DNA of 64,000 nucleotides, from positions 1,302,001 through 1,366,000 of the forward strand of contig NC_014002.1 in assembly GCF_000025865.1 (NCBI RefSeq), read 5' to 3'. The notes below the pieces were generated by a model, which saw nothing but the letters and a program-made list of their open reading frames with translations, was not told the origin of the DNA and did not search any database. Source of the stretch: Methanohalophilus mahii DSM 5219. GTDB lineage: Archaea > Halobacteriota > Methanosarcinia > Methanosarcinales > Methanosarcinaceae. A program made the position numbers and the translations under genes. Shown in pieces: positions 1 to 19,296 of this stretch (its first letter is position 1; each line of letters opens with the position of its first letter).

Positions 1-222
1 GAAGGATTCCAGCAGTCCCTCTTTTTCCATCCTGCGCAGGGTTGTATACATGGTACCTGATTTGATGATGTGCCTGCCTTCACTTAATTCCTCTATGGCT
101 TTTACTATACCATAGCCATGAAGTGGCTCCTGGCATACTACCCGAAGGATAAGGAACTGGATCCATCTTCTTTCAGGATAATTGAGTTTGTTTTTGCAGT
201 TGTGTCCGCCAGTTTCACACAT
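1..222 (-). CDS. PadR-family transcriptional regulator, N-terminal part (cut by window edge)
   Basis: Only the first 74 codons are present; the rest lies beyond the window edge. After a short Cys/Lys-rich head the PadR winged-helix core is readable: RWIQFLILRVVCQEPLHGYG, then the recognition segment SGTMYTTLRRMEKEGLLES. PadR proteins are dimeric repressors that often respond to small molecules or metals and repress themselves. I chose the ATG at 222-220 because the family core follows at the usual distance. An imperfect palindrome at 231-249 lies just upstream and could be the autoregulatory operator. The effector cannot be told from this fragment. Confidence 0.85.
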   Translation of the reverse strand, partial: MCETGGHNCKNKLNYPERRWIQFLILRVVCQEPLHGYGIVKAIEELSEGRHIIKSGTMYTTLRRMEKEGLLESF

Positions 223-230
223 GCTTTTAC

Positions 231-249
231 TATATAACAATGTTATCTA
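231..249. promoter_or_regulatory. Imperfect palindrome upstream of the PadR gene (possible operator)
   Basis: TAACA at 235-239 and TGTTA at 241-245 form an inverted repeat with a 1-nt centre; flanking bases extend the dyad to 231-249 with one mismatch pair. It lies about 10 nt upstream of the PadR start codon in AT-rich DNA, where the promoter should be. That it is a PadR operator is inferred from position and symmetry only. Confidence 0.4.
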
Positions 250-642
250 TATATCGTTTATGGTGCTAAACTCTGCATTCCATAACCTTTCCTGTATTGA
301 CCAACTGTTGGATGGCAAAACTACAATGGAAGTGCTTGGTCATCTCTTTGAAGAGGAGAATGCACAGATAAACTGCTGCAATTGAAGAAAGGATCATGCT
401 TGCTGTTTTTCCGGTGAGAAAACACCTGATAGTTTTGACTTTAAATTCCAGCCACATACCAACAGGAAAATGATGGAAGACCTGACAACTCTGAGATTTG
501 ATCACATATTTTTACGGCGTTAACAGTATATATTATGCCGATGACATATAATATAAGGTTAATTTATAATTGGCAAAATAAGGGAAAATGGTGAATGAAG
601 CCAGATTGACTTATGCCTGAAAAGAAGAGGGGGGTAAAGAAA
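250..642. other. Intergenic region, possibly with decayed coding sequence
   Basis: I recognise no intact gene here. A plus-strand open frame at 401-523 reads like protein (it contains SGEKTPDSFDFKFQPHTNRK) but has no start and no family I can name; an overlapping frame ends at 385. These may be remnants of a lost gene. AT-rich DNA at about 543-570 probably holds the promoter of the downstream cytochrome gene. Confidence 0.4.
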
Positions 643-2850
643 TTGAAAGTGAACAAAATTGGAATATTAGTATTATTAATCGTAATTGCTATAATAGCTA
701 TAGCGGGTTGTGTCTCGGAAGAGCCAGAAACTGCTGATTCAAATGTTGAAACAGTTCAGGGGAAGATTGTGGATGTTAAAATGAATCCTGTGCCGGGTGC
801 CCTCGTACAGGTGGAGGGACAAAATGTCGCCAATACCACGGCATCTGATGGGTCCTTCAAACTTACCAACGTCGAGGCCGGCTCAGTATATCTTTATGTA
901 ACTGCACCATCTGAGAAGTATCTGGACGGTGAAACTCTTGAGTCAATCCCTGTAGATTCGGGATCGACGGTTTCTGATGTCACAATCACTCTTACGGGCA
1001 GGCCGAGCAACAATTCTACCCATGTTGGCATGGAGACATGCCAGATGTGCCATGGCAGGGTATGGTCCGACATGTTCGAAACTTTTGATGGCACAGGGGA
1101 TGCAGCGGCACATTCACGTTTTGTGGTTCAGGGCACCGACCAGATGATCTATCCCGACATGTGGCCCGAACCCGGTGACAAAGTGCTGCCCCGGGATCCC
1201 AATGGCGACCTTTTGATGGTGCAGGATCCGCAGGATGGTGAGGGCCTGGTGAACGTGGTTCTTTGCACACGTGATATTGAAGGAGAGCGGGAGTATCTGT
1301 TCAAATTCTATCCGGAAAGCGATACGAAGTTGACCGAGGATGATCTCGACTGCTCGGGGGCTGACGGGGACATATTCGCATGGAAGGATGAACAGGACAA
1401 CGGAACTTACGACCCAGAGGAGAATCCCATTTTCATCCCTGTGGCAGCCACCATCGGCGGCCAGGGGAACTGGGGCGAGGGTTGGCTGGATCCCAATCAT
1501 GAACAACCCGACCGTTATCCCAACTTCGGCGAAGGCAAACAACGTTACATGTGCCGGATGCAGGATGTGCCCTGGGTTCGCCAGTGGGCAAAAGATAACA
1601 ACGTGACCAACTGGCTTGAGGAGGACTACACAGACTACATATCCTATATGCCCGTGTACCTCATGCAGGACGGTACCCCTGCAGATAGCGATGCTCTGGC
1701 CCCCAACGATGTAGCTGCACCCAAGTTCTGGCAGAAGAGCCCCAACCACTGGGCCTATCCTGCAAACACCATGTCACGCAACTGTGCCGGATGTCATGCC
1801 ACAGGCGCAAAGATCGAGAAACAAGATTTCGACGATGCCCACGAACCGGGTGATACTAAACAGGTTGTCACGAACTTCGAGTTCAAAGACCTCGACATCA
1901 CATGTGAGACATGCCACGGCCCCGGCTCCGAACATGCGGAAAGCGGAGATAAAAACAAAATTATCTCACCACAGTATCTGACGGCCAAGGCGGGCAATGA
2001 GCTGTGTGGCCAGTGCCACGGATCCCATGCGGGCAAGAGTGCTACCCCCGAAGGCATTCACAAATACCCATATAACGGCAGCTATGAAAATTCATTAGGT
2101 AATGGTTTCTTCGTGCCCGGCGTAAACGACATCGAAGACTTCTATTACAATTATGATCAACCCACTTCAGGTCTGCAGGATTATTCCGGCACCTGGACAG
2201 AGGGTACTTTCCACAGCTGGCCCGATCAGGCACATGCCCGTGCACACTCCCAGATGCTTTCTGAGATGCGCCGCTCGGTTCACTACGACAACCCGTACGA
2301 AAAGCTTACCTGCTTTACCTGCCACGACGCTCACACCTTGGGTGCTCCAGACCTTGAGGTGGACGGGGTCAAGTTCGAGGAAGCCGCTTACAACGACAAC
2401 ACACTGTGTCTGACCTGCCATGCAAGCCACGGGCCATTTGAGGAGATTGCAAAAGAAGACGTAATCAACATGTCCAGGGACGATGGGTTCCTGGCCCGTA
2501 ACACTGTGGCTAGTGCGGTCTCCAGTCACATGGAAGAGAAGGCGAGTATGGGTGTTGCCCCCTATACCCCGACCAATGAGACTTCGCCGGCTGGCAGATG
2601 TACTTCATGCCACATGGCAAAGATCAGCAAACTTCAGGACGTGAATGATGACGCCCAGTGGCATCTGGCTCTTGATGCGGACGGTAAAAGTGCCGTAGCT
2701 GAGGGGAACGTGGGATCCCATGTGTTCGATGTGGTGTGGCCAGGCCAGAGCTCTGCACTGGTGCCGTTTGCCACACAGGATGCGGATGTAATGCCCAACT
2801 CGTGCGGTAACTGCCACGAATCTGCCCGTTTCAGCGGCGACGACGATTGA
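643..2850 (+). CDS. Octaheme c-type cytochrome lipoprotein with N-terminal carboxypeptidase-regulatory-like domain
   Basis: Predicted extracytoplasmic multiheme cytochrome for electron transfer. Eight CxxCH heme-binding motifs run from about residue 133 to 725: CQMCH, CAGCH, CETCH, CGQCH, CFTCH, CLTCH, CTSCH, CGNCH. The N-terminus is a lipoprotein-type signal, a hydrophobic stretch ending in IAGC. Residues ~35-110 look like a beta-sandwich of the carboxypeptidase-regulatory type (QGKIVDVKMNPVPGALVQVE). I prefer the TTG at 643 to the in-frame ATG at 613, because a strong Shine-Dalgarno (GAGGGGGG, 627-634) sits 8 nt before it and the resulting start MKVNKIG resembles MKVNKY of the other octaheme cytochrome in this window. 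It appears monocistronic, with a hairpin terminator behind it. It is longer than, and has one heme more than, the heptaheme MmcA type of Methanosarcina; the redox partner is unknown. Confidence 0.9.
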   Translation: MKVNKIGILVLLIVIAIIAIAGCVSEEPETADSNVETVQGKIVDVKMNPVPGALVQVEGQNVANTTASDGSFKLTNVEAGSVYLYVTAPSEKYLDGETLESIPVDSGSTVSDVTITLTGRPSNNSTHVGMETCQMCHGRVWSDMFETFDGTGDAAAHSRFVVQGTDQMIYPDMWPEPGDKVLPRDPNGDLLMVQDPQDGEGLVNVVLCTRDIEGEREYLFKFYPESDTKLTEDDLDCSGADGDIFAWKDEQDNGTYDPEENPIFIPVAATIGGQGNWGEGWLDPNHEQPDRYPNFGEGKQRYMCRMQDVPWVRQWAKDNNVTNWLEEDYTDYISYMPVYLMQDGTPADSDALAPNDVAAPKFWQKSPNHWAYPANTMSRNCAGCHATGAKIEKQDFDDAHEPGDTKQVVTNFEFKDLDITCETCHGPGSEHAESGDKNKIISPQYLTAKAGNELCGQCHGSHAGKSATPEGIHKYPYNGSYENSLGNGFFVPGVNDIEDFYYNYDQPTSGLQDYSGTWTEGTFHSWPDQAHARAHSQMLSEMRRSVHYDNPYEKLTCFTCHDAHTLGAPDLEVDGVKFEEAAYNDNTLCLTCHASHGPFEEIAKEDVINMSRDDGFLARNTVASAVSSHMEEKASMGVAPYTPTNETSPAGRCTSCHMAKISKLQDVNDDAQWHLALDADGKSAVAEGNVGSHVFDVVWPGQSSALVPFATQDADVMPNSCGNCHESARFSGDDD

Positions 2851-2868
2851 TACAACAAAATACCATAT

Positions 2869-2899
2869 TAGTGAGGTATATCCGGGAAATACCTCACTA
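2869..2899 (+). terminator. Hairpin plus T-rich tract after the octaheme cytochrome gene
   Basis: An 11-bp perfect stem (2869-2879 with 2889-2899, core GTGAGGTAT/ATACCTCAC) with a 9-nt loop begins 19 nt after the stop codon. Two T-runs follow (about 2905-2910 and 2919-2925), typical of an archaeal terminator. Confidence 0.7.
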
Positions 2900-2932
2900 C
2901 CCTACTTTTTTGAATTTATTTTTTGAGTAACT

Positions 2933-3272
2933 AAAAAATGTAATCGTTTATCGGGCAGACAAGTCCGGAGTTCTTTTCTAATTTCTGCTCAGCTAATTGA
3001 GGAGCCTGTCTTTAGAGTTTGGATTTAAAGGTCACTCATTTTACAAATATTTGCACAGATGAAATCCCCATCACTACTCATCTTGATAAGATTTAGAATC
3101 AAAAACCTCTATGGCAATCGGATCGATACCATAAGACTGATTGCAGCAGGCTGGACCTTATGATGTAATTGAAATGAGGATTTGACTGCAGCATGAATAT
3201 GGTAATTTTTCAAACAATTCTATTTGATATCACTTTCCGCATCCGTTCTGATCACACAAAAAGTATTAATAC
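2933..3272. other. Intergenic region upstream of arsR
   Basis: No intact gene. Around 3115-3205 short plus-strand open pieces read like IDTIRLIAAGWT and, after a frame change, YDVIEMRI. This could be a decayed coding relic, but it is too short to name. The promoter of the downstream ArsR gene should lie at about 3255-3272 (AAAAAGTATTAATAC). Confidence 0.35.
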
Positions 3273-3298
3273 ATGCATACATATATTCGAATATACGC
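3273..3298. promoter_or_regulatory. Palindromic ArsR-type operator at a leaderless promoter
   Basis: A perfect 14-bp palindrome (TATATTCGAATATA, 3282-3295) is preceded by ATGCATA (3273-3279) and abuts the ATG of the ArsR gene at 3299. A TATA-like stretch about 30 bp upstream suggests a leaderless transcript, so bound repressor would cover the start site. The ATGCATA motif recurs at the same relative place before the ArsR-ArsM gene (4919-4925). Confidence 0.55.
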
Positions 3299-3700
3299 AT
3301 GTATCCAATTGAATTAGCAAATCCAAAAATAACAGGCAAATGGGAAGACTTCTTTAAAGTCCTCTCTGATGAGACCCGCTTGAGAATCCTCATGCTTTTG
3401 AATCAAAGAGAACTTTGCGTGTGCGAGATATGCCAGATACTGGACCTGCCCCAGCCCAAAGTCTCCCGTCATCTTGCAAAAATGAGAGATCTTGATATTG
3501 TAAGAGGCAAGAAGGAAGACCAATGGGTTTTTTACTATCTGAACATCGCAGATCCACTGTTCAAGGGGATCATCCAGCAGATGGCTGAAAATAGCCAACA
3601 TCATCCTCTTGTTTGCAAAGATATGGAGCAGCTTGCTGAAAAAGAGAGTTCAGGAACAATGTGTGCACGAATTAAAGATAAAATAGGAGAGAATTCCTAA
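3299..3700 (+). CDS. arsR: ArsR/SmtB-family metalloregulator
   Basis: A 133-residue winged-helix repressor. The core LSDETRLRILMLLNQRELCV is followed by CEICQILDLPQPKVSRHLAK. The pair of cysteines in ELCVCEIC matches the ArsR alpha-3 arsenite/antimonite binding motif (ELCVCDLC), so trivalent arsenic sensing is likely. The ATG at 3299 is preferred to an upstream in-frame start because the conserved domain begins here and the operator palindrome would otherwise lie inside the gene. The stop codon shares one base with the ATG of the DUF169 gene (taATG), so the two are translationally coupled. Confidence 0.9.
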   Translation: MYPIELANPKITGKWEDFFKVLSDETRLRILMLLNQRELCVCEICQILDLPQPKVSRHLAKMRDLDIVRGKKEDQWVFYYLNIADPLFKGIIQQMAENSQHHPLVCKDMEQLAEKESSGTMCARIKDKIGENS

Positions 3701-4437
3701 TGGCAAATTTTGCAAAAGAACTTAAAGATATATTGAATCTTCAAAGAGCGCCGGTGGGAGTCAAATTCCTGAAAGCTGGAGAAGAGGTGGATTTTACAGG
3801 TACCTATGATGCCGCAACAAAATCCAGATATTGCCAGGCCCTTATGAGGGCCGGACAGGAGGAAAAAGTGTTGATAACTGCTGAAAACATATCCTGTCCT
3901 GCCTCTGCGGCTGGCTTTGGCCTGAAACCCCTGCCTGAAATGCTCTCTTCCGGAAAGATGCTGTTCAATATGGGTTTGTTCGATAGCCCTGATGCTGGCA
4001 GAAACGCCATGGAAGGAATGACCAGGCTTGAGCAAGGGAAATATGCAGCAGTTCTGCTAAGTCCTCTTGAGAACATCGAAGTAGAACCGGATATTGTTGT
4101 GATCGAAGCCTTGCCGGAACAGCTGATGTGGCTATCACTTGCATCCATATATGAAACTGGAAACCGATTGGAGTTCAATACAGCCGTATTTGAGGCAACA
4201 TGTGTGGATTCTACCGTGATCCCCTTTGTGACAGGAAAACTAAATTCGAGTTTAGGTTGCTATGGATGCAGAGAAGCTACAGATGCACTCGATGAAGAAA
4301 ATCTCATAGGCATACCCTACAAAGAGATGGAAAGAATCATCCCGAACCTTCAAAAACTTGCTGCGAAACCTATGAAAAAGGCAAGATCAAAAGAAGCATT
4401 GAAGTCGTTCAGCGGATGTGGATCTGACAGTGAATAA
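3700..4437 (+). CDS. DUF169 family protein
   Basis: A 245-residue protein of the DUF169 family, widespread in methanogens and clostridia and without established biochemistry. Family-like features are the opening KDILNLQRAPVGVKFLKAGE, a Cys-containing segment YCQALMRAGQEEKVLITAEN, ISCPASAAGFGL, and a C-terminal LGCYGCRE. The conserved cysteines suggest metal or cofactor binding. It is coupled to the ArsR gene by a 1-nt overlap and so is probably controlled by it. A very small ORF with a strong ribosome site follows 24 nt later. A role in arsenic or metal stress is inferred from the operon alone. Confidence 0.85.
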   Translation: MANFAKELKDILNLQRAPVGVKFLKAGEEVDFTGTYDAATKSRYCQALMRAGQEEKVLITAENISCPASAAGFGLKPLPEMLSSGKMLFNMGLFDSPDAGRNAMEGMTRLEQGKYAAVLLSPLENIEVEPDIVVIEALPEQLMWLSLASIYETGNRLEFNTAVFEATCVDSTVIPFVTGKLNSSLGCYGCREATDALDEENLIGIPYKEMERIIPNLQKLAAKPMKKARSKEALKSFSGCGSDSE

Positions 4438-4461
4438 TACTACTATAGAAGGAGGAATTGT

Positions 4462-4545
4462 ATGAACGACCAACAGAACCCAATGGATTAGATGCCGATG
4501 ATGTCAGGTGGAAAAATGCATGGCCACTATGGAAAGAAACAATGA
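4462..4545 (+). CDS. 27-codon Met/His-rich mini-ORF with an in-frame UAG (candidate pyrrolysine miniprotein)
   Basis: A near-perfect Shine-Dalgarno (AAGGAGGA, 4449-4456) sits 5 nt before the ATG. The frame reads MNDQQNPMD, then UAG at 4489-4491, then MPMMSGGKMHGHYGKKQ and TGA. If UAG is read as pyrrolysine (O), the product is 27 residues, with Met pairs and HGH that would suit copper or another soft metal. It is third in the ArsR-DUF169 operon, 24 nt after DUF169. Alternatives are a truncated remnant of a longer metal-related protein, or a 9-residue leader peptide ending at UAG. The ribosome site and Met/His composition are what I see; the decoding and metal role are inferred. Confidence 0.45.
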
Positions 4546-4665
4546 GTAAATCCATTAAAAGGACGCAAACCTCAGTCTTTGGTTCTTGACTCTTATCAAT
4601 GCCTGTTCGATATGAATCACTTCAATCTCCACTCCACTTCTTTTTGTTATCAGTGTACCCTCTGA

Positions 4666-4827
4666 TTATCTGCAACAGTCGCATCCACCTTTTAGAGAGA
4701 GCAAGTTGCCTTTATTATATTCTTCAGACCAGCAATCTTCACAGATTTTTATAACTCCTAATTTCACATGATTTACCTTCAGAAGAGAGTTTTCTTCCTT
4801 TGAACATATTGCACATTTAAATCCCAT
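4666..4827 (-). CDS. Small cysteine-rich putative zinc/metal-binding protein
   Basis: A 53-residue protein with three cysteine groups: CAIC near the N-terminus, ICEDCW in the middle and a GGCDCCR tail. The layout suggests a zinc knuckle plus a soft-metal binding tail. The ATG at 4827 has a good ribosome site (GAAGGTC) 6 nt upstream; in-frame starts at 4872 and 4932 lack one. It is divergent from the ArsR-ArsM gene across an operator-like palindrome, so co-regulation by arsenic is plausible. I do not recognise a named family. Confidence 0.6.
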
Positions 4828-4918
4828 TTTTAGACCTTCTGCTAATTGTTGTGAATTTGGTATCTCTAGCATATATCTAATTGTTTTCGGACAAAGTGAT
4901 AATCCCAAAAACTTAAAT

Positions 4919-4942
4919 ATGCATAAATGCACATATGTACAA
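4919..4942. promoter_or_regulatory. Operator-like dyad before the ArsR-ArsM gene
   Basis: ATGCATA (4919-4925) is followed by an imperfect dyad TGCACATATGTACA (4928-4941) whose ACATATGT core is perfect. It abuts the likely start codon at 4943 and lies between divergent genes. The arrangement copies the arsR operator at 3273-3298, where ATGCATA is followed by a palindrome and then ATG, suggesting related repressors. Confidence 0.5.
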
Positions 4943-5992
4943 ATGATGCTTCATGAAAAAGCTAAATTCTTCAAAGCATTGGGAGACCAAACGCGTCTTG
5001 CAATAATAGGATGCTTGCTAAAGCATGATCATTGTGCATGTGATTTTGCAACAATTACAGGCAAGGATCAAACCACTGTATCCCGGCATCTCAAGATACT
5101 TTGTGAAGCGGGCATACTGAAGTATGAAAAAGATGGCAGATATGTAATTTACAGCATAATGGATGATAATATGAAAGACAAACTTGAAAATTGCGGAATT
5201 GAAAAATTAGATTCATGCTGTTCTGATAATGCAGCAGATGCAGACGCTAAGAAAAACGTTGTAAAGGAAAAATACGGAAAAATTGCATTGGATGTTGTAC
5301 AGGGGTGTGGATGTTGCGGAGATCTCACAAAGGAAGAGGTATCAACATCCATTGGCTACTCATTTGAAGATACACAATCATTCTCTGCAGCAAATCTGGG
5401 ACTTGGATGTGGAAATCCAACGGCAATCGGTGAGATAAAAGAAGGCGATGTCGTTCTTGATCTTGGTTCAGGAGGAGGATTTGATAGTTTTATCGCTGCA
5501 AGGAAAGTGGGTAAAACCGGTAAAGTCATTGGCGTGGATATGACAGAAGATATGGTTGCAAAAGCAAGGAAGAATGCTGAGAAGTATGAATTGGATAATG
5601 TCGAATTCAGGCAGGGAGATATCGAATCTTTACCTGTTGAAGCGGATTCTGTTGATGTCATAATAAGCAACTGTGTAATCAATCTTGCACCTGACAAATC
5701 CAGGGTATTCAGGGAAGCATACCGTGTTCTCAAAAATGATGGGAGGATGTATGTTTCAGATATGGTTCTTCTGAATGACTTAACCCCCGAGCAAAGGAAT
5801 GATGAAGATCTTATATGTGCCTGTATAGGGGGTGCATTGCTGAAAGATGATTATCTGGGGACTATAAAAGATGCCGGATTCACTGTCCAGATAATAGATG
5901 AAGACAAAGATATTAGTGAAAATCAGTACTCAGGGTATCCGGTTATGAGCCTCAAACTAAAGGCTTTTAAAGCAGAAGTCGGTAGAGCTTGA
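4943..5992 (+). CDS. arsM: ArsR-type HTH fused to arsenite S-adenosylmethyltransferase
   Basis: An N-terminal winged helix (~1-75; [20 protein letters not shown], with CACDF and [10 protein letters not shown]) is joined to a class I SAM methyltransferase (~95-350). ArsM signatures include [10 protein letters not shown], the SAM-binding [13 protein letters not shown], and [15 protein letters not shown]. The cysteines in LGLGCGN, SNCVINL and CACIGGAL match the As(III)-binding triad known for ArsM enzymes. ArsM methylates arsenite stepwise to volatile or less toxic species. The fusion would let one protein sense arsenic at its own promoter and detoxify it. I start at the ATG pair 4943/4946; the in-frame ATG at 4919 lies in the operator dyad. 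Confidence 0.9.
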
Positions 5993-6077
5993 TTGTGATA
6001 TCCTGTATGTAATTTGTTTTAAAATGGAATGCCTCAATTGAGTATACTCTTCTGGCATTGCATTTTGGGGCAAATAT

Positions 6078-6332
6078 TACTTCATTTATAGTTTCATTGA
6101 AAAAGATGCAATGGATAAACAGGATTTTATCAGAACTGAGAACTATGGTTTAAGGTTTAAACCAACAGGATAAAAGGTATTAACATTTGATTTTTACATC
6201 ATGTTAAACAGAGTATTGCTATACAGAGGCAAGAACTTCTCATGGTTTTATATCTTGTTGTTGAAACTAAGAGAACTGGCATTCTATATTACTGGCAGGA
6301 TGTGGTCAAATCATATTTCAAATGGCATATGA
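6078..6332 (+). pseudogene. Decayed Cas1 (casposase-like) C-terminal fragment
   Basis: A single plus-strand frame, interrupted only by TAA at 6171, matches the C-terminal half of the intact Cas1 at 20759-21976. It reads YSFIEKDAMDKQDFIRTENY then GLRFKPTG, against FSLVEKGAMDKQDFIRTETY and ALRLKPTG in the intact protein. After the stop comes LYRGKNFSWFYILLLKLREL then AFYITGR, against KYRNKQHTWSAILLLKTREL and AQYLVGK. The N-terminal half and the terminal HTH are missing. The divergence shows it is a relative, not a recent copy, of the intact gene. I see no CRISPR repeats or other cas genes nearby, so it is probably a relic of an older casposon. Confidence 0.75.
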
Positions 6333-6457
6333 TACGTTGATAATATTCGATGAAGAGATGATTGTGCCTCCTCTTATCTAAATATGATATTGCAAAAACA
6401 TAAATATACAGCAGACAAACTGAATACAAGAAAGATTATGCAAACGGGGGGGTTATT

Positions 6458-7204
6458 GTGGAACAAAATGAATATATGAATACCAGAATTCCAATGATGG
6501 GCGAATTTGCTCCTTCTTTCAGGGCCCGTACCACACATGGGGAAGTGAATTTTCCAAAAGATTATGAAGGTAAATGGGTAATTTTTTTCAGCCACCCTGC
6601 AGATTTTACGCCTGTATGTACCACTGAATTTATTATGTTTGCAAAGATGGAGGCAGAATTGAGGCAGCTAAATACCGAACTTCTTGGTCTGTCAGTTGAC
6701 AGTGTACAATCACACATTTCCTGGTTACGCTCTATAAAGGAAAAGGTGGAATTCAATGATATCTCGGGCATAGATGTGGAATTTCCTATAGTAGAAGACC
6801 AGGGGTTGTCAATAGTAAAAAAATATGGGATGCTCCAGCCTTCTGAGAACAAAAGGTATATGAGATATATTCAGGACATTCGGGCGAACAATGCAACTGA
6901 TGAAAACGAAATCATAAATACCCAACCGGTTAGGGGAATATTCATAATCGACCCGGAGTCACGCATCCGCTATATGGCCTTTTATCCAATTTCCAATGGC
7001 AGAAACCTTGATGAAATAAAACGTAGCCTTCAGGCAATCCAGAAAACAGATTCGGAAAAAGTAGATACTCCTGTTAACTGGAATCCCGGCGATGACGTCA
7101 TAGTACCTACTCCTCTTTCCTATGAAGATGCAAAGAAGCGCATGGAAGATAAGGAATTGAATTGTTCCGATTGGTACATTTGCCTTCAGAATGATAAAAC
7201 CTGA
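6458..7204 (+). CDS. Peroxiredoxin (Prx6/AhpC-TSA type)
   Basis: A 248-residue thiol peroxidase that reduces hydrogen peroxide and organic peroxides. The active-site stretch HPADFTPVCTTEFIMFAK carries the peroxidatic Cys in the PxxxTxxC motif, and the conserved Arg region PVRGIFIIDPESRIRYM is present. A long C-terminal arm with two further cysteines (ELNCSDWYICLQ) is typical of archaeal Prx6-like enzymes. The GTG at 6458 is preceded by a G-rich ribosome site (ACGGGGGGG). It stands alone, with a likely promoter in the AT-rich DNA upstream. Confidence 0.95.
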   Translation: MEQNEYMNTRIPMMGEFAPSFRARTTHGEVNFPKDYEGKWVIFFSHPADFTPVCTTEFIMFAKMEAELRQLNTELLGLSVDSVQSHISWLRSIKEKVEFNDISGIDVEFPIVEDQGLSIVKKYGMLQPSENKRYMRYIQDIRANNATDENEIINTQPVRGIFIIDPESRIRYMAFYPISNGRNLDEIKRSLQAIQKTDSEKVDTPVNWNPGDDVIVPTPLSYEDAKKRMEDKELNCSDWYICLQNDKT

Positions 7205-7552
7205 TTTTTGAGCAGTATTATCACGTTCTAATAGTGCGGGATCATAGGTAAGTCGATTTTATAGGATGCTTTCTAAAGTGGTTGCACAATTTTATTTAAC
7301 TGATAAACCAAAGTTATTTGAACGATTCAAAAGTGTGAATAAAAGTAGTGAATAGGATTAGTACTTACAGTTGTTTAAATGCCCATTTATCTGAATGACT
7401 GAAATATTGTCATCGAAAATTGTCCTGAAGGGCAAGAGAGTGTTTTCTGGGCAAGTGTGGAAATCACAATAAGGTAGTCCCTAGATTCCATCACCGATAA
7501 TTGTGGAAAATGAAAGCTTGGTATTGCAGAGCAAAAAATTAAATCATCTACT
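7205..7552. other. Intergenic region between peroxiredoxin and cytochrome c genes
   Basis: This lies between convergent genes. A short plus-strand stretch near 7266-7350 reads like MLSKVVAQFYLTDKPKLFER before running into stops and may be a gene relic. At 7236-7250 there is a weak likeness to the casposon left end (GCGGGATCATAGGTA). Nothing else is recognisable. Confidence 0.3.
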
Positions 7553-8089
7553 TTATAATGTTTTCAGGTACTCAATCAAATCATCCAGATCTTCATCCGT
7601 CATTCTCCATCTTGGCATAGTTGAGTCAAGTGGTTGTCCTTCAGGGTCTATGCCCTCTCTTATGACTATCTTGATTGTCTCATCTGTGTATGGTATATGT
7701 CCTACATGCTCTTCAGATGTCAAACTATCGTAGGTAATATCGGCTGGTACCACGTATCCCATCATTATGGGGGCTCCTCCTTTTCCATCCACTCCATGGC
7801 AGTTAACACAGCTGCTACCATGTACATAGACCCAGCGAGGACCAGCGGTCATACTTAATCTGTAGCCTGAATCGTTAAAGCCGGTATAATAAATCATTTC
7901 CCCATTTGACTCAAAGTCTGTTACTTGATACTGACCAGACATATAATCTCCCTGATATGTATCCATGGGATATTGGCCTGAACCTACAGGTGCATATCTG
8001 GCATTTGATTCTAAATAAACCAAATAGCCAATACCAACGGTTCCTACTATAACAAGCAATGCAGCAACCAGAAGAAAAGAAGTTTTCAT
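7553..8089 (-). CDS. Membrane-anchored monoheme cytochrome c
   Basis: A 178-residue protein with an N-terminal hydrophobic anchor (FLLVAALLVIVGTVGIGYLV). One heme motif, SSCVNCHGVDGKGG, is followed by PIMMGYVV and a C-terminal MPRWRMTDEDLDDLIEYLKTL-like helix (split here by the usual loop), as in class I cytochromes c. The methionines in this C-terminal half could supply the sixth heme ligand. It should face outside the membrane. The SHOCT protein gene lies 15 nt upstream on the same strand, so the two are probably co-transcribed. Likely an electron shuttle with the nearby octaheme cytochromes; the direction of electron flow is unknown. Confidence 0.85.
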   Translation of the reverse strand: MKTSFLLVAALLVIVGTVGIGYLVYLESNARYAPVGSGQYPMDTYQGDYMSGQYQVTDFESNGEMIYYTGFNDSGYRLSMTAGPRWVYVHGSSCVNCHGVDGKGGAPIMMGYVVPADITYDSLTSEEHVGHIPYTDETIKIVIREGIDPEGQPLDSTMPRWRMTDEDLDDLIEYLKTL

Positions 8090-8104
8090 GTTGTGTCCCT
8101 TCTT

Positions 8105-8341
8105 TCAAATAATGTCTTTTTTGATCTCCTCAAATTCCTCTTTAGTAATTTCTCCTTTAGCATATCTGATTTTAGCAACTTCAAGGGCGGAAGCTTCTTC
8201 TTTTGCTTCTTCACGATTTTTGTTCTGATCAGTGAACCATTTTATAACTATAATCGTGCCTACAATTATAAATATCCAGAATAAAAGTCCAAGTAGCATA
8301 TGGCCGTAGCCAAAACCATAGTAACCCATATATCCATCCAT
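8105..8341 (-). CDS. Small membrane protein with SHOCT domain
   Basis: A 78-residue protein: a Gly/Tyr-rich head (MDGYMGYYGFGYGHM), one transmembrane helix (LLGLLFWIFIIVGTIIVIKW) and a C-terminal SHOCT motif (ALEVAKIRYAKGEITKEEFE). SHOCT domains are short oligomerisation-type modules of unclear function, often in small membrane proteins. I chose the ATG at 8341 because AGGGAGTGG lies just upstream; the longer in-frame start at 8368 places that site inside the gene. First gene of a probable pair with the monoheme cytochrome. Confidence 0.8.
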   Translation of the reverse strand: MDGYMGYYGFGYGHMLLGLLFWIFIIVGTIIVIKWFTDQNKNREEAKEEASALEVAKIRYAKGEITKEEFEEIKKDII

Positions 8342-8969
8342 TGTACCACTCCCTAAAACTATAATCATCAGTCACTTTAAGTTAATGCTAATGATTATGT
8401 TGATTTTGATACTGCATATAGGTTTTGGGTGTTGTAAAGGACTTGTTAATATGTTATATTAAATATTACAAGTCTATAGTTTCAAGTTGAAATCATTTAA
8501 GTGAACTAAATTTTAAATATTACTATAAGTTCATTCAGAACAAAATAGTATTATTCGAATTTATCTTTGATATCTAGGAAGGAAAGCACACCCATAATCA
8601 AATTTGCTACCACTGCAAGGAAATGATAGATATTTTTGAATGAGTTTAAAACAAAACCTTTTCAAGTACATTGATTGGACAAATTAACAAAGGTGTATCG
8701 AAAGGATGAAAAGATTTCTTTCCTCAAAAGATTTTTATAATCATGTTTCTACGTGTACTACTATTATTTGACTCATTGAAAGTTGGTTTAATTCTTAATA
8801 TATATCTCGTCCATATTAAAAAGACGTGGAAAATATAAAAAAACTATTGAGGATGTTAAGGATAAGCTGGATGATATCTGATGATCTAACCTTAATTCTA
8901 CAACTTAAAGCTGACTACCGCATCTGATTTATCTGAGCCAGTATTATCTTAGTCTTTTATTCCCACAGA
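8342..8969. other. AT-rich intergenic region with possible gene remnants
   Basis: There is no intact gene. On the minus strand 8551-8655 is open and reads like the last helix of a membrane protein (FLAVVANLIMGVLSFLDIKD). On the plus strand about 8814-8881 reads ILKRRGKYKKTIEDVKDKLD, like the end of a charged helix. Both lack starts. The promoter for the SHOCT/cytochrome pair should lie near 8360-8420. Confidence 0.35.
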
Positions 8970-9598
8970 TTAGTAAACAAATCCTCCATACATTTTTCTC
9001 AGTGAAGATTTTTGGAAATACCTTTCAACAGATTTCCACAAATGCCTATGCTGAAGTTCTTCCCTGACACCAAAAGGCTTAGTAACTACTATCAACAAGG
9101 GTGCAAGATGTCTCATGTAATCATCCGGCATTTTGAAATCAAGAATTGCAATTCTACCACTTTGCTCAGAGATTCGCTGCAATTCCTTATCACCTTGTCA
9201 TAGTCTGGAGATAGTGTCAATGCAAATGTTGAGAAGACTGCACCAACACCTTTTGGGATATTGTATTGAGAAACATCACAATGAACTAACTCAACATTTT
9301 CCCAGTTATTTTTCTTGACCCACTTCTCTGCCTTTTCGAGCATTTTATCAGTAATGTCCACTCCTATTATCTTGCCCTCTTTTCCAATCTTTTGTTGCAG
9401 CAATGGAAAATTGAGACCTGTGCCACAGCCCAATTCTACGACTGTATCACCTTTCTTGATATCAAGGGAGTCAATTGTGAGAACTCTATAATGATGTAAT
9501 CTAAAACCAATCAAATAATACAGGCAAGCGCTAATATCATAATTCTTTGCTCTTTTCCTGTATAGGTCTGCAACCTCTTTTGGACTTAAAACTGGCAA
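8970..9598 (-). pseudogene. Class I SAM-dependent methyltransferase, frameshifted
   Basis: The first frame (9598 to about 9185) carries the SAM fold: DTVVELGCGTGLNFPLL (motif I), IIGVDITDKMLEKAEKW (motif II), ENVELVHCDVSQ and VFSTFALTLSPDYDKVI. A one-base loss near 9183-9185 then moves the reading frame. The rest (QRISEQSGRIAILDFKMPDD ... GGFVY) continues in another frame to TAA at 8970 and completes a normal ~209-residue enzyme. Left as is, the first frame ends at 9113 with a nonsense tail. It resembles small UbiE/PmtA-like methyltransferases; the substrate is unknown. Either a recent loss of function or a sequencing error. Confidence 0.75.
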
Positions 9599-9669
9599 AT
9601 TATCCCCATCGGCATTGATATACTTTATATTGCTTTAATTGGAATTCAAAAACAGATTTACACGTCAAA

Positions 9670-10941
9670 TTACTCTTTTCTAAATATATAACCTATGAAC
9701 AGCATCGTAGCTGCAATAATCACTCCGAGTCCAGGCGTTTCTTCAGGAGGTGGTGAAACAGGTGTTTCCTCCTTCACGTTATGGTCCACTACAAAAGGTG
9801 TTGTTTGAGCGGCCCATTCTTTATCTTTGTCTATATGGCAAGAAATGCAAGAATACTCCAGTGTGATGTATGGATTTGCATACTCATTTCCATCTTCTAC
9901 ATCAACATAAATAAACCTGGCATTCACACTTGTATTGATCCTAAAGAGGTGTGAACTTATATCTGCTTTATAGGGGGATGTATTGACCGCAGATTTGACG
10001 TTCTTTGGCATGTGGCAGTCCACACACTCCACTCCTGCACTTCCCATAATCGACTCTTCGTATATTTGTGCAGCTGTTGGATGGCAGTCCCCACAATGGG
10101 TGATAATCCCAAATTCATCTATCTGATTAGTAGCACCCTCATGAACAGGCTTGTGCGGGTCATGACAAACAACACAGTTTAGATCTGACATGTTTCCCGA
10201 TGCCAGCAATTCCTGGTATTGTTCATTGTGTCTGACGAATCCATCACTTGCAGGAATCTTGTTATCTTCAGCTCCACGTCTGTGACATTGACCACAGAAC
10301 GAAGCATTTTCATTTACAGTAATTGCAACACCTCTAATCCCCTTTTCTGCTACATGCTCACTACCAGCTCCATGGCACGCTTCACATTGAATTCCACTGA
10401 ATTCCCATGAACCATTTATTCCAGGAAGGTTTTCCATTCTTTCATCATAGGATGCTCCGGTGGTATGACAATTCTGACAATCATATTCCAGAACCTCTCC
10501 TGCATGATAATCCACCCATTCTTCAGTCTCAATGTTATATTGGTTCGAACCATTGATTTCTAGATTATCTCCGGTTTTTGTTATGATGTATCCGTGGTTG
10601 CTGATGTATCTGGATTTCCACCCCCATCCACCGATAACATAGAGTACATCATCTTTTTCATAGCCTTCAGGCATTGGTAGGTCAGACCTAATTTCAAGAG
10701 CTTCATCCGGTGTCATGAGAATGTTTTTGTGACCTGATAAGTTCCAATATTCATAAATTTCTGAATGGCAGATCTCGCACTCGTCTGCTCCAATATATGT
10801 GGCACCTTCTACAGGCATAACTACTGGTTTTTTTTGGTCGCCTATTACATAGGTTTCTGCTGTTACTGATACGGAAAGAATAATGATGACCATAAATGTT
10901 GTCAGAATCACTGTTAATAATCTGTACTTATTAACTTTCAT
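9670..10941 (-). CDS. Surface-anchored octaheme c-type cytochrome
   Basis: A 423-residue secreted multiheme cytochrome. It has a signal peptide (LLTVILTTFMVIIILSVSVT) and eight CxxCH motifs: CEICH, CQNCH, CEACH, CGQCH, CVVCH, CGDCH, CVDCH, CISCH. A Pro-rich linker leads to a C-terminal anchor of PGF-CTERM type (ETPGLGVIIAATMLFIGYIF, then a basic end), so it should be fixed on the outer face of the membrane. The heme pattern with CHGAGSEH and CHDPHKP resembles the cytochrome c554 group. The DUF4405 membrane protein gene lies 73 nt upstream on the same strand. Likely role: extracellular or surface electron transfer. Confidence 0.9.
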   Translation of the reverse strand: MKVNKYRLLTVILTTFMVIIILSVSVTAETYVIGDQKKPVVMPVEGATYIGADECEICHSEIYEYWNLSGHKNILMTPDEALEIRSDLPMPEGYEKDDVLYVIGGWGWKSRYISNHGYIITKTGDNLEINGSNQYNIETEEWVDYHAGEVLEYDCQNCHTTGASYDERMENLPGINGSWEFSGIQCEACHGAGSEHVAEKGIRGVAITVNENASFCGQCHRRGAEDNKIPASDGFVRHNEQYQELLASGNMSDLNCVVCHDPHKPVHEGATNQIDEFGIITHCGDCHPTAAQIYEESIMGSAGVECVDCHMPKNVKSAVNTSPYKADISSHLFRINTSVNARFIYVDVEDGNEYANPYITLEYSCISCHIDKDKEWAAQTTPFVVDHNVKEETPVSPPPEETPGLGVIIAATMLFIGYIFRKE

Positions 10942-11014
10942 TTAATTTCCCACTCACATTTTGTTTCTGAGTTTCTCTTTGTCCTTATCTTTGGAACTTC
11001 AATTCAGAGAGCTT

Positions 11015-11323
11015 TCAATTGGGATAAATGAGATGATGAATTATAATTCCAATCAACAATACTAGACAAGCAAATATGTAAATTACACCATAAATTTTTC
11101 TTTTTCTCGGATCATTTACAGTTCTTTGATACATTTTCATGACTGAATTCCAATGCAGATATATGTGAACTAAAATTAAACCAAACAATACCAAACCCAA
11201 ATAGAGATGGATGTCTCCAAATAAATGCATTTTAAGTAGTAGAGAAAGCCCGATTCCAACTAATAACATGAGATCTAAGAACATCAAAGTCTCGATCAGA
11301 AAATTAAATGTTAGCTTTTTCAT
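11015..11323 (-). CDS. DUF4405 membrane protein (putative heme b-type subunit)
   Basis: A 102-residue protein with three predicted transmembrane helices (about 8-30, 38-58, 80-98). Histidines lie near the helix ends: FGDIHLYLG, LVHIYLHW and GIIIHHLIYP. DUF4405 proteins are thought to be small cytochrome b-like membrane anchors; heme ligation here is an inference from the histidines. It is upstream of the octaheme cytochrome on the same strand and could link the membrane quinone/methanophenazine pool to the surface cytochrome. Confidence 0.75.
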   Translation of the reverse strand: MKKLTFNFLIETLMFLDLMLLVGIGLSLLLKMHLFGDIHLYLGLVLFGLILVHIYLHWNSVMKMYQRTVNDPRKRKIYGVIYIFACLVLLIGIIIHHLIYPN

Positions 11324-11411
11324 AGATTCTTCCCACGGACTTGAAAATTCTTTTATCTTAAATTTAAAATGGCTGTAATGAATTTATGCTCATACTATAG
11401 GGTAATTTTAT

Positions 11412-12371
11412 TTATTTGCCTAGAACTTCTGGATTTACAATGTTCTGAGGTTCACCTTCCACAAATTTCTCCACATTTTCTATACAGATATATGTACACT
11501 CCTCAAGTGATTCTTCTGAAAGGAATGCTATATGGGGTGTGAGGACAACATTATCCAGTTCCATAAGAGCACTATCTTCTGGAAGTGGTTCGTTTTCAAA
11601 AACATCAAGTCCTGACCCTCTGATTTTTCTTTCTTGAAGCGTTTTTATCAATGCAGCCTCATCGACTACTTTTCCCCTTGATGTATTTATAAGGATTGAA
11701 GATGATTTCATTTTTGCAAGTTCTGCCTCTCCAATCATTTTTTCTGTATCAGGCGTGAGTGGGACATGTAAGGTAACAATATCAGATTCTGAAAGTAAGG
11801 TATCAAGGTCCACTAATTTGACTCCTAATCTCAGTTCTTTTTGTGGATTAGGATGAGCAGTTGTGGAAATTACATTCATATTAAACCCATGGGCAATCTG
11901 TATCACCCTTATACCTATGTTTCCGGTCCCGATTACTCCGATCGTCTTACCCATTAACTGGTTGCCTACATAATCGCGCCAATCGAACATTCCTTTGCGT
12001 ATTTTACTATCAGCTATATGCACTCTTCTGAACAAATTAAGAGCAAAAGCAAAAACCATCTCTGCCACCGAATCGAAGGCGTAGCCAGACACATTTGATA
12101 CTATCACTTTATTTTCAGTTGCTGAATCAAGATCTATGTGGTCATATCCAGTCTGCCAGACGGAAATCATCTTGAGATTTTTGGCATGAAGAAAAGCTTC
12201 ATTTGAAAATCCATACCTTCCAATCAGGATGATGTCTGCATCTTTTATCCTTTCAATAAATTCATCCAATGAAGAAGGCATTGTATCGAAAATACGTAAC
12301 TGACCAATTACCTCCAGTTTTTTTCGATATTCTTCAGGAAGGTATATTGGGTCAGCAACGACAATTTTCAT
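11412..12371 (-). CDS. D-isomer-specific 2-hydroxyacid dehydrogenase
   Basis: A 319-residue NAD(P)-dependent dehydrogenase of the D-2-hydroxyacid family, which interconverts 2-oxoacids and D-2-hydroxyacids. The Rossmann motif is GKTIGVIGTGNIGIRVIQIA. The catalytic residues are visible: Arg in ILINTSRGKVVDEAAL, Glu in DVFENEPLPEDS and His in LTPHIAFLS. The substrate (glyoxylate, phosphoglycerate-like or other) cannot be fixed from sequence. The ATG follows CAGGAGGAAAATA, and its first base is shared with the stop of the frame-corrected YHS gene, so the two form an operon. Confidence 0.9.
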   Translation of the reverse strand: MKIVVADPIYLPEEYRKKLEVIGQLRIFDTMPSSLDEFIERIKDADIILIGRYGFSNEAFLHAKNLKMISVWQTGYDHIDLDSATENKVIVSNVSGYAFDSVAEMVFAFALNLFRRVHIADSKIRKGMFDWRDYVGNQLMGKTIGVIGTGNIGIRVIQIAHGFNMNVISTTAHPNPQKELRLGVKLVDLDTLLSESDIVTLHVPLTPDTEKMIGEAELAKMKSSSILINTSRGKVVDEAALIKTLQERKIRGSGLDVFENEPLPEDSALMELDNVVLTPHIAFLSEESLEECTYICIENVEKFVEGEPQNIVNPEVLGK

Positions 12372-12558
12372 TATTTTCCTCCTGAATAAAATTCAATATA
12401 TTTTTCTGGATCTTCATCGAATTTTTTTTGCATGAAAGGGAACAAAAGTGGTATTTTTCTCCTTTATATTCACTCTTGAACTTTGCAGCCATTTCATCAA
12501 TTTCCATTTTGCATACAGGATCTATAACTGCCATCAATCTCGGGTCTATAATTCCCAT
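12352..12558 (-). CDS. YHS-domain metal-binding protein, apparently frameshifted in an A8 run
   Basis: A YHS domain reads normally through VIDPVCKMEIDEMAAKFKSE, then YKGEKYHFCSLSCKK. The family continuation (FDEDPEKYIEFYSGGK, then TAA at 12373-12371) is in another frame beyond a run of eight A residues on the coding strand (12422-12429). With nine As the gene would end exactly at the ATG of the dehydrogenase (taATG). As sequenced, it runs on in the wrong frame to 12352 with an unrelated tail (KIQKNILNFIQEENNENCRC). YHS domains bind soft metals through their Cys residues. The start is ATG 12558, after AGTGGTGAT. Causes could be a sequencing error, a phase-variable homopolymer, or slippage during expression. 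Confidence 0.7.
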   Translation of the reverse strand: MGIIDPRLMAVIDPVCKMEIDEMAAKFKSEYKGEKYHFCSLSCKKNSMKIQKNILNFIQEENNENCRC

Positions 12559-12706
12559 GATATCACCACTTCCCTTTTTAAATATGCACATTGTATTGCT
12601 ATTAAACTTTTGCTTCTGAAGATATGTTCTCAAAAAATGATTATAAACATTGATTTTTTAGAATACTCAATTTGGTCAACAAATCCGCTCCTGTGCCAAT
12701 CTATTA

Positions 12707-14005
12707 TTACTCATCTATATTGGGTCTTGACCCTATGAACCATTTTACACCAATAAAGATGAGTACTATAAGGATCAGGGATATGGCAACTAAAAACATA
12801 TCTGTGGATGCTTTTGTCACCAGAAGAGCACCAAGGACAACTGCATCAAGAATGATTGCTGTGGCCACAATATATGGGTTTACATTAATTTCTTCACGCA
12901 TATGGCGCAGAAGTCCCCAATGTATGATAATGTCCATTAATAGATAAAAGATAGCACCAAGAGAGGCTATCCTGCTTAGATCAAAAAATATCGTCAACAA
13001 TATGGCGACAACAACTGTGTATACAAGAGTGTGATTTTGGATATTTCCTGGCATACCAAAGTGTCTGTGTGGTATTATCTTCATGTCCGTTAACATTGCA
13101 AGCATACGGGAGACCGCAAAAATGCTTGCAATTATACCGGAAAGGGTTGCAATGATCGCTAATGCGACTGTGAACCATAATCCATAATTACCAAAAAAGG
13201 GCTTTGCTGCCTCTGCCAGTGCAAAATCCCTTGCCTCGATAATCTCAGGCAGGGTAAGACTTCCTACAACTGCAAATGATACTAAAAGATAAACAATAGC
13301 ACAGATCGTTATAGAAATGATTATTGCTCTGCTCACATTGCGATGAGGGTCCACGATCTCTGAGCCGCTGTTGGTAATAGTTGTAAAACCCTTGTATGCA
13401 AGCACTGACAATGCTATGGCTGCGAGATAGCCACCTGTGGCATTATCAATTGTACCTGTGGATGCACTTGTAAAAGAAAAATCAGCAACCCATAGTCCAA
13501 CGATCCCAAATATGGAGATCGCAGCTATTTTGATCAAAGCCATAAAAAATGAAAATTTTTCTATTACCACGTTACCAGATATATTGATTGCAAAAGCGAA
13601 TATGAGTAATCCTACACCTAAGATCGGTACAAGAAAGCTTCCCTGGTTGATATCGAATAATTGCAGTGTATATGTTCCAAAAGTTCGGGCAACAAGACTT
13701 TCATTAATCACCATTGAAAAAGCCATTAGCAACGCGCTAAATCCGGTAATTACTCCTTTTCCATATGCCTTTTCCAGATACATGGCAATTCCTCCTGCGG
13801 AAGGGTAGGCATTGGAAAATTTTATGTAAGAATATGCGCTGAAAGCCGTCACAATTGCGCCTATAAAAAATATAAGGGGAAATAATGTTCCAGCCAACTC
13901 TGCTATTTGTCCCAGCAATGCGAATATACCCGCACCGATCATTACTCCGGTGCCTAAAGATACAGCACCAGTAAGTGTCAAACTTTCTGGTTTATATCGA
14001 TTCAT
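12707..14005 (-). CDS. APC-superfamily amino acid permease
   Basis: A 432-residue, about 12-helix transporter. The first helix has the APC signature GTGVMIGAGIFALLGQIAEL, the substrate-binding unwound region. Further family stretches are SNAYPSAGGIAMYLEKAYGK and FTTITNSGSEIVDPHRNVSR, the latter conserved in APC permeases after helix 6. It is expected to take up an amino acid or related amine by proton or sodium symport; the substrate is not predictable here. Probably monocistronic, and the last chromosomal gene before the casposon. Confidence 0.9.
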   Translation of the reverse strand: MNRYKPESLTLTGAVSLGTGVMIGAGIFALLGQIAELAGTLFPLIFFIGAIVTAFSAYSYIKFSNAYPSAGGIAMYLEKAYGKGVITGFSALLMAFSMVINESLVARTFGTYTLQLFDINQGSFLVPILGVGLLIFAFAINISGNVVIEKFSFFMALIKIAAISIFGIVGLWVADFSFTSASTGTIDNATGGYLAAIALSVLAYKGFTTITNSGSEIVDPHRNVSRAIIISITICAIVYLLVSFAVVGSLTLPEIIEARDFALAEAAKPFFGNYGLWFTVALAIIATLSGIIASIFAVSRMLAMLTDMKIIPHRHFGMPGNIQNHTLVYTVVVAILLTIFFDLSRIASLGAIFYLLMDIIIHWGLLRHMREEINVNPYIVATAIILDAVVLGALLVTKASTDMFLVAISLILIVLIFIGVKWFIGSRPNIDE

Positions 14006-14456
14006 TTTTGTATCTCACAGAAATCCAAATTGATTATTGTTTTTCCATCTATAAATGAAAAGGTTTTAATCAATCTTTAATGTTTTCGCATTAAGAGAAA
14101 ATACCGCTGTGCTTAAACTCATAAGAATTGCTTCAGAAGCGGGGTGTAGTAATATTCCATACCTTCAAATAAGATACCTTCTACCAAAGGAATTGTAAAA
14201 GTATTATAACTAGTTGCCTAAAGAATTTTCTAATACATTTCCAAAGATGATTTTTTTTCTTTTTATATCTTACATCAATAAGGTCTAATGCTTTTAATTT
14301 TCATTTAATAAAACAGTATTATCCTTTTAATTATATCTTTGATACATCAAATTTCAGTCAAAGGAGAAATTGATGCAGATACCCATGTTGATGTTTATTA
14401 ATAAAATTCTTATAGTTTTATATAATTAGTTATAATAGACCTTAAACATATATTCC
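14006..14456. other. AT-rich intergenic region left of the casposon
   Basis: No gene recognised. Since a casposon terminal repeat ends at 14501 with its inner side pointing left, part of this stretch may be the remains of a second, decayed element. I could not find a matching left end or target duplication in it. Confidence 0.4.
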
Positions 14457-14501
14457 ATTAATAATTTCAGGGGTTGCATTTTTCTACCCTACCTATAACC
14501 C
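14457..14501. repeat. Orphan casposon terminal repeat, outside the left end of the intact element
   Basis: This 45-bp stretch is the near-perfect reverse complement of the casposon left end at 14516-14561, differing by a few substitutions and one indel. It ends ...CTACCTATAACCC, as the true right end (30852-30881) does. Its orientation is that of a right end, and it abuts the 14-bp target duplication. So it marks the right border of another casposon copy, now decayed, that used the same target. Confidence 0.75.
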
Positions 14502-14515
14502 GATTGGTTGGTGCG
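14502..14515. repeat. Left target-site duplication of the casposon
   Basis: GATTGGTTGGTGCG is identical to 30882-30895, where it forms the 3' end of the tRNA-Leu gene and its downstream flank. Fourteen to fifteen bp is the size known for casposon duplications, and tRNA 3' ends are known casposon targets. Confidence 0.85.
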
Positions 14516-14545
14516 GGGTTATAGGTAGGATAGAAAAATACAACC
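14516..14545. repeat. Casposon left terminal inverted repeat
   Basis: The 30 bp begin GGGTTATAGGTAGGATAG and continue AAAAATACAACC. The reverse complement of the right end gives GGGTTATAGGTAGAATTG then AAAAATGCAACC, so only a few positions differ. Weaker likeness continues inward (AAATTATTAA on both sides). Confidence 0.85.
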
Positions 14546-14887
14546 CTATGAAATTATTAATATTTATAGTTATTACTTAGAAATTATTATAAACATTATA
14601 TGTAACACATATATTTTATATTCAGGTATAAATCTTGAATATCTTTTTAACTTAAACCTTTTTATACTTACTTTCTATTCATTAATAGGAAATTATTTAG
14701 TGAATAATAAAAATAGAATCATTACGATTGAAATTATTGTAAGTATATTATTTTGTCTTATTTATTTTATTTAATATTAGTAATTCTGCTAGGGGATTTG
14801 TATACAAAAGTAATAGAAATGGGGTATGAGCCTAAATAAAGGTATTTTATTGGAGTATTTAACAAAAAACAAGTAGAGTTGATATAT
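14546..14887. other. AT-rich left end of the casposon, upstream of the SIR2 gene
   Basis: No gene recognised. The DNA is very AT-rich and likely contains the promoter for the SIR2 operon (for example the TTTTTATACTTA stretch near 14660). Confidence 0.4.
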
Positions 14888-15967
14888 ATGTTTACTGAAA
14901 CGAATCAAAGCATCAATTGGGATAATGAACAAGTTGTCTTTTTCTTTGGGGCTGGTGCGTCCAAACCTGAGGGAGGCATACTTACTACACAATTATTGGA
15001 AGAATCATTTAAATCGTCCAGCAATGACGAGAAAGTGAGTATGGTTAAAAAATATCTAAAAGATATCTACCATTATGAATGGAATAATCCAAATATTCCT
15101 ACTTTTGAAGAAATTCTTGGACCAATTGACATTGCATTACAGAAGCAGGAAAATATATCATCTGAGTGGGATATAAAAAAACTTAGTTGTCTCCGAGATA
15201 ATTTGATTTATTGTATATGTGATATACTAAACAAGAAGTTGAAATTTCCAAAAGGAATACACAGAGATTTTGTAAATAATTTGTTATCTATACAATCTGA
15301 TATGTGGAAAAAATGTAGCTTTGTAAGTCTGAACTATGACATTTTACTAGACAATGCATTGATGAAATATAGCAACAGAACCCCTTTTAATATTGATATT
15401 GAATATGGAATAAGATTTCGAAATGTAACATATAGAGAAGGTGAAATGCAAGATAATAACAATCGGCATATTCCAAGTAAAAAAACCGTTCCTTTATTGA
15501 AATTACATGGAAGTCTGAATTGGATATATTGTCCAACATGTAATTCAATAAAATTAACACCTAGAAAAAAGGGTGTCATGAACATATATACTAAATCTGA
15601 ACCTTGCGACTCTGATTTTTGTAAAGAAACTTCAATGCAAAGACCAATAGTTGTACCACCTACTTTTACAAAATCGTATGAAAATCCTTTTCTAGTATCC
15701 ATTTGGTTTCAAGCTGAAAACGTACTTCAAAAAGCTACACGAGTATATTTTATTGGATATTCGATGCCTGAATCTGATATACATATTCAATACCTATTGA
15801 AGAAATCCTTGTTTAGGCAAGACGGAAATTCTCCAAGAATTATAATTATCAATCCAGAGACTAAAAACGGAGATCTCCATAATAGATATAGAAGACTATT
15901 CGGTGAAGTGGAATATTATCCAATAGGGTTTGAACATTTTGCACATAACTTAACTAATTATTTATAA
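14888..15967 (+). CDS. SIR2-like domain protein (putative anti-phage NADase)
   Basis: A 359-residue SIR2-family protein. The nucleotide-binding motif VVFFFGAGASKPEGG is at ~17-30; FVSLNYDILLDN and LLKLHGSLNW give the conserved Asn-Tyr-Asp and the likely catalytic His (~207). A CPTC pair and two later cysteines (EPCDSDFC) may bind zinc. YFIGYSMPESDIHIQYLL is a typical C-terminal segment of prokaryotic SIR2 proteins. Such proteins often cleave NAD+ on phage detection and cause abortive infection; that role is inferred from family and cargo position. ATG 14888 is chosen over an upstream TTG. The next gene begins 11 nt later, probably as its partner. Confidence 0.8.
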   Translation: MFTETNQSINWDNEQVVFFFGAGASKPEGGILTTQLLEESFKSSSNDEKVSMVKKYLKDIYHYEWNNPNIPTFEEILGPIDIALQKQENISSEWDIKKLSCLRDNLIYCICDILNKKLKFPKGIHRDFVNNLLSIQSDMWKKCSFVSLNYDILLDNALMKYSNRTPFNIDIEYGIRFRNVTYREGEMQDNNNRHIPSKKTVPLLKLHGSLNWIYCPTCNSIKLTPRKKGVMNIYTKSEPCDSDFCKETSMQRPIVVPPTFTKSYENPFLVSIWFQAENVLQKATRVYFIGYSMPESDIHIQYLLKKSLFRQDGNSPRIIIINPETKNGDLHNRYRRLFGEVEYYPIGFEHFAHNLTNYL

Positions 15968-15978
15968 AGGTGAGATGC

Positions 15979-19254: not shown

Positions 19255-19296
19255 AACTCAAGAATCTAAATAATTCTTATAAATACAGGAGAATAT

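Follow-up and report, generated by a model that had tools for sequence, protein, structure and literature searches.

A decayed casposase of a second lineage beside an arsM-like gene in Methanohalophilus mahii and its sister species

A short stretch of the window (the whole 64-kb piece of the Methanohalophilus mahii genome analysed here), at positions 6084–6299 of the forward strand, holds a casposase relic, which sequence comparisons support as derived from a lineage distinct from that of the casposon resident in the same window. The relic is most probably a dead remnant of this second casposon lineage that became joined to an arsM-like gene in an ancestor within the genus, was inherited from there and now lies at two tRNA-Leu loci.

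The frame at 6078–6332 (+) is open apart from a single internal TAA (6171–6173). A tblastn search of the 64-kb window with the resident casposase gave, besides its own gene, an ungapped match at 6084–6299 with 39 of 72 residues identical (54%, E 3e-18), corresponding to residues 257–328 of the resident's 405; the next match in the window had an E value of 1.5, a difference that rules out chance similarity. At the DNA level, 57 of 73 positions are identical in the best part. The first-pass annotation had read a single frame with one TAA matching a casposase at this place, which these data confirm, and had called the match the C-terminal half; the homology stands but, since the match spans residues 257–328, the relic represents the stretch that precedes the C-terminal helix-turn-helix (HTH) and not the whole half. 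The HTH itself is absent from the relic (the match stops at residue 328, while the intact relative described below extends to residue 400), as is an intact catalytic part (residues 1–256 are missing and the TAA lies inside the frame). We take the catalytic residues of casposases to be located before residue 257. Because of the stop and the loss of both the first 256 residues and the HTH, the relic is unable to act as an integrase. The 84-residue relic piece alone matched nothing in Pfam or NCBIfam and a search of the plasmid collection was without a match; its identity as a casposase is founded on pairwise and phylogenetic evidence and not on domain profiles.

Matches to the relic were present in 62 of the 111 genomes of the family (the M. 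mahii genome counted), the best after the relic itself being in the same genus (G032:C1:248672, 71%). In an alignment of 36 casposase and Cas1 sequences, the relic shared 52/72 residues with the intact casposase of genome G032 (row L157, the gene of locus L070), 49/72 with a second, truncated G032 copy, 29–37/72 with 15 other casposase rows (L121, one of these, being incomplete) and 7/43 with L123, a divergent and incomplete casposase row. The relic grouped with the two G032 casposases with support of 100/99 (short-region tree and full tree), and the resident clade was separate from this clade in both trees (99/97 and 100/100). The proposal of a distinct casposon lineage is therefore upheld, the relic being closer to the G032 casposase (52/72) than to the resident one (39/72), in agreement with the trees. 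The branch leading to the relic is long (0.40–0.43), as expected for a decaying gene. Comparison with the L070 cas1 gave dN 0.17 and dS 0.72, and the codon changes specific to the relic comprise 15 nonsynonymous, 9 synonymous and one stop, from which we read that constraint probably acted on the gene over most of the time since its separation, with decay setting in afterwards.

The intact G032 relative belongs to a complete casposon of 8,928 bp (L070, G032:C1, 1659–10586) that adjoins tRNA-Leu(TAG) and is flanked by identical 14-nt target duplications (AGAAAAATAGTGCG). Its ends (GGGATATAGTTATCTC) are of a type of their own, differing from that of the resident casposon; its Cas1 was confirmed by Pfam scan, and, on their likeness to ORFs of the window, further ORFs are putatively PolB (888 aa), HNH and HTH-like. 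The cas1 gene points towards the tRNA, as the relic does. This casposon neighbours the end of yet another element.

Upstream of the relic lies an arsM-like gene that is linked to it in sister species (4919–5992, +; ArsR-HTH and methyltransferase, PF01022 and PF13847), the 3' flank of which (5993–6083, +) runs into the relic in an alignment of six loci; downstream, what remains of the relic is bounded by a peroxiredoxin gene copy (6389–7222, +; also at G000:C1:1085543–1086365, 95%). The arsM-like gene was found by DNA match in five of the eight Methanohalophilus genomes (G000, G031, G032, G034 and G036). At five loci in four of these genomes the transition from the arsM 3' flank to the cas1 start falls at one and the same position: in the window, in L065 and L071 (both G032), in L066 (G034) and in L067 (G031). 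What follows the junction varies, with cas1 residues 257–328 in the window, the start of this stretch followed by a gap and then residues up to 319 in L065, residues ~341 to 379 in L067 and residues 343–363 in L071; the cas1 start of L066 was seen through an 86% DNA match to L071 and the six-locus alignment, not by tblastn. At L068 (G036) the arsM flank is present and the cas1 start is absent, and a larger cas1 piece (residues 272–404) lies ~1.5 kb further on. Nine methyltransferase loci outside the genus, three of which (L041–L043) resemble the arsM-like gene of the window over more than 1 kb, showed no cas1 piece beyond one chance-level hit (E 0.88). Given the junction shared by five loci, the relic is an old remnant travelling with arsM and eroded differently in each species.

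The surroundings of the junction involve more than one tRNA. In the window the arsM-cas1 unit is upstream of tRNA-Leu(CAA) (30889–30974, −; ARAGORN), the integration site of the resident casposon; in G032 (L065) the unit is fused to tRNA-Leu(CAA), and over the 10 kb past this tRNA G032 is collinear with the window at 88%, so that the window is ~24.6 kb longer between relic and tRNA. The tRNA-Leu(CAA) flanks examined in the six other congeners hold neither arsM nor cas1, and tblastn over 10–18 kb around the tRNAs of those six detected a cas1 piece only in L105, near its tRNA-Leu(TAA). It is near this second tRNA that arsM occurs in G031, G034 and G036 (at 8–22 kb), and L071 of G032, ~40 kb from tRNA-Leu(TAA), lacks the arsM gene itself but keeps its flanks together with the cas1 piece; the same junction is thus found near two tRNA-Leu genes. 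Related genomes, in which the first-pass annotation had proposed to look for a complete ancestor at the same locus, do contain an intact relative (L070, at tRNA-Leu(TAG)). The relic is not simply the remainder of a local insertion, since it is attached to arsM and their junction also stands near another tRNA-Leu gene.

Two further observations concern the islands before tRNA-Leu(TAA). The ~40 kb of G032 that precede this tRNA (L071, L072 and L100; G032:C1, ~1597–1640 kb) are rich in casposon ends and hold several cas1 pieces, with both lineages represented, forming a pile of tandem and broken casposons. In the corresponding island of the M. mahii genome, two pieces of L074 (4978–5184 and 9665–9798; G000:C1 ~1083 and ~1088 kb) encode cas1 residues 329–397 and 199–257 and flank the second peroxiredoxin copy. 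Owing to these pieces, a cas1 split exactly at residue 257 through insertion of an MscS-peroxiredoxin-arsM block was considered; a simple split is not claimed, because the upstream piece of L074 continues as NLIEKDNSDE, skipping residues.

One junction standing near two tRNA-Leu genes, both represented by traces in G032 (L065 and L071), is what would be seen if a casposon derivative had carried the arsM-cas1 unit as cargo from one tRNA-Leu gene to another, mobilised in trans by a casposase, with the relic as the remainder of the derivative's own casposase; we regard this alternative as possible but doubtful. Casposon ends were scored with a matrix built from 14 ends over 31 bases, and in L071 a site (3976, preceded by TTGCTGTGTAGTGCG) in the interval separating the peroxiredoxin gene from the arsM position reached 35.8 bits, whereas the highest score among 60 shuffled 64-kb sequences was 16.4. 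The places orthologous to it scored 16.9 (L066), 21.1 (L068) and 22.9 bits (L104), and a second place, 5' of peroxiredoxin, scored 8.1–17.8 bits in three loci and below 7 in L074; the scores at L071 3976 and its orthologous places indicate that old casposon ends are present there. However, these ends are of the resident type, unlike the cas1 piece; no unit bounded on either side by matching duplications turned up; the arsM copy in the window has no end at its left edge (best score −6.3 bits); and recombination between tRNA-Leu islands yields an identical pattern. The wider form of this idea, in which stress genes (the arsM-like gene and, separately, peroxiredoxin) would have been cargo of casposon derivatives that lacked a functional casposase and were moved in trans between Methanohalophilus tRNA-Leu genes, with the relic as the casposase of such an element, appears unlikely to us, and arsM as casposon cargo is treated here as a possibility only. 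A literature search restricted to papers outside subscription returned no report of casposons with arsenic, arsenite methyltransferase or peroxiredoxin.

Two other places resemble casposon ends. Directly after the peroxiredoxin copy of the window, TGCGGGATCATAGGTA (7235–7250) resembles the beginning of a casposon end together with its duplication, over the first 16 bases only; it fits a 16-base end pattern without mismatch, as does just one other place in the genome, the pattern having been written after the site was seen, and with fewer than 7 bits on the end matrix it is a weak candidate for a casposon end. In L104 (G035:C2, 3969–15975), ~12 kb encoding MttB-type and dimethylamine methyltransferases, a corrinoid protein and amino acid permeases lie between two inverted casposon ends, one of 49.0 bits that had served to train the matrix and one of 22.9 bits; this unit adjoins tRNA-Leu(TAA), and its two flanking 14-mers differ.

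The resident casposon (14516–30881), delimited by its pair of terminal inverted repeats (TIRs), carries SIR2-like, Cas1, PolB and KAP ATPase genes identified by Pfam, ends of the type GGGTTATAGGTAGG and a 14-nt target duplication (GATTGGTTGGTGCG) in a left copy (14502–14515) and a right copy (30882–30895), the latter overlapping the 3' end of the tRNA. Its casposase (405 aa; 20759–21976, −; PF01867, E 7e-68) has the Methanosarcina mazei casposase as its best solved match (PDB 6opm, E 1e-198, 403 residues). The element, with its KAP ATPase, is probably the MetMah-C1 of PMC4046053. Its PolB looks split in two ORFs (23995–24270 and 24319–26697), against a single 888-aa ORF in L070, and given this apparent split the resident casposon may not be self-sufficient. 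The left end (14516) is ~8.2 kb from the relic, close to the annotated distance of about 8 kb.

Next to this left end is an orphan casposon end (14456–14501, −, interior to the left; 49.0 bits on the end matrix, of which it is itself one of the 14 training ends). It matches the resident left end at 29/31 positions and the end at tRNA-Leu(TAA) of G035 at 31/31, faces left and is separated from the resident left end by exactly the 14-nt duplication; as it abuts the target duplication of the resident, another casposon must once have been there, in a tandem insertion at tRNA-Leu(CAA). This end had been suggested as a companion of the relic, in which case the two would be remains of one older casposon that occupied tRNA-Leu(CAA) before the resident. 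The end is real, and the relic is oriented towards the tRNA like cas1 in the intact G032 casposon, but we consider a common origin improbable: the orphan end is of the resident type and the relic is of another lineage with different ends, L070-type ends (GGGATATAGTTATCTC) are absent from positions 1–14600 of the window at up to 3 mismatches of 16, and the arsM-cas1 junction exists away from tRNA-Leu(CAA) too. By its sequence, the orphan end was more likely left by another casposon of the resident type than by the relic's element, and on account of its type is probably not the relic's companion. The end-matrix scan found no casposon end at 4800–4960 or 6290–6400, flanking the arsM-relic unit; TIRs with a target duplication, as around a complete casposon, do not surround the relic; and the PolB, HNH and HTH genes that the resident has, and that L070 has as judged by likeness, are lacking among the scanned ORFs from 4919 to 14005. 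The element behind the relic is not delimited, because no end of its lineage is nearby.

Descent from the CRISPR Cas1 of a lost locus, although CRISPR-type Cas1 genes do occur in the genus (G031, G034 and G036), is refuted as far as the sampled Cas1s go and has next to no probability, since the relic shares only 10–17 identities over 68–71 positions (maximum 17/71) with 16 CRISPR-type Cas1s of relatives, compared with 52/72 for the best casposase, and the tree nests it inside the casposases (100/99). Nor does the M. mahii genome offer a better CRISPR-type match, a point on which the first-pass annotation had made its reading depend: over the whole genome (G000, 2,012,424 bases, one contig) the one Cas1 recognised by Pfam is the resident casposase.

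We therefore return to the reading of the relic as the remnant of a second lineage joined to arsM in an ancestor within the genus. A second casposon lineage, of which a sister species still has an intact copy at tRNA-Leu(TAG), would have contributed cas1; a rearrangement in a casposon pile at a tRNA-Leu gene of that ancestor would have fused arsM, on its 3' side, with this gene starting at residue ~257; and the junction would have been inherited, also reaching a second locus, tRNA-Leu(CAA), in the lineages of M. mahii and G032. In M. mahii, the unit is now separated from its tRNA by a peroxiredoxin copy and other genes, as well as by one further casposon end and the resident casposon. The homology, the lineage, the common junction and the two tRNA-Leu settings are shown by the data; we infer the order of events and the path by which the arsM-cas1 unit came to the second tRNA, be it transposition or recombination among casposon copies.

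Adjacent casposons have been described in M. ... psychrophilus among the family 2 casposons (Krupovic et al. 2014, PMC4046053), and tandem casposon insertions are already known (PMC4046053, PMC6563490, PMC10359463). The nearest relative of the relic in a complete element resembles family 2 casposons in its Cas1, ends, 14-nt duplications and tRNA-Leu site, whereas of the relic itself 72 codons are left, which are attached to an arsM-like gene and traceable across sister species. The tandem casposons of PMC6563490 and PMC10359463 are likewise matched by the orphan end, duplication and resident end in a row at one tRNA, but the outer element here is known by its end alone. The M. mazei casposase (PMC6977970) shares tRNA-Leu as a site and CGCA in the duplication, unlike the relic, which covers residues 257–328 only and has a stop. 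The literature search, restricted as above, found no paper with both casposon and Methanohalophilus.

The relic is thus a real but ordinary genomic fossil, variously eroded in sister species; since tandem and decaying casposons are known, it is a new example of these, and the trace across species is what it adds. Members of at least two casposon lineages have inserted at tRNA-Leu genes within one archaeal genus, and their debris is readable as orthologous fossils across species, which offers a way to order insertions. If the arsM unit did travel as cargo of such elements, casposons would be vehicles for adaptive genes among methanogens.
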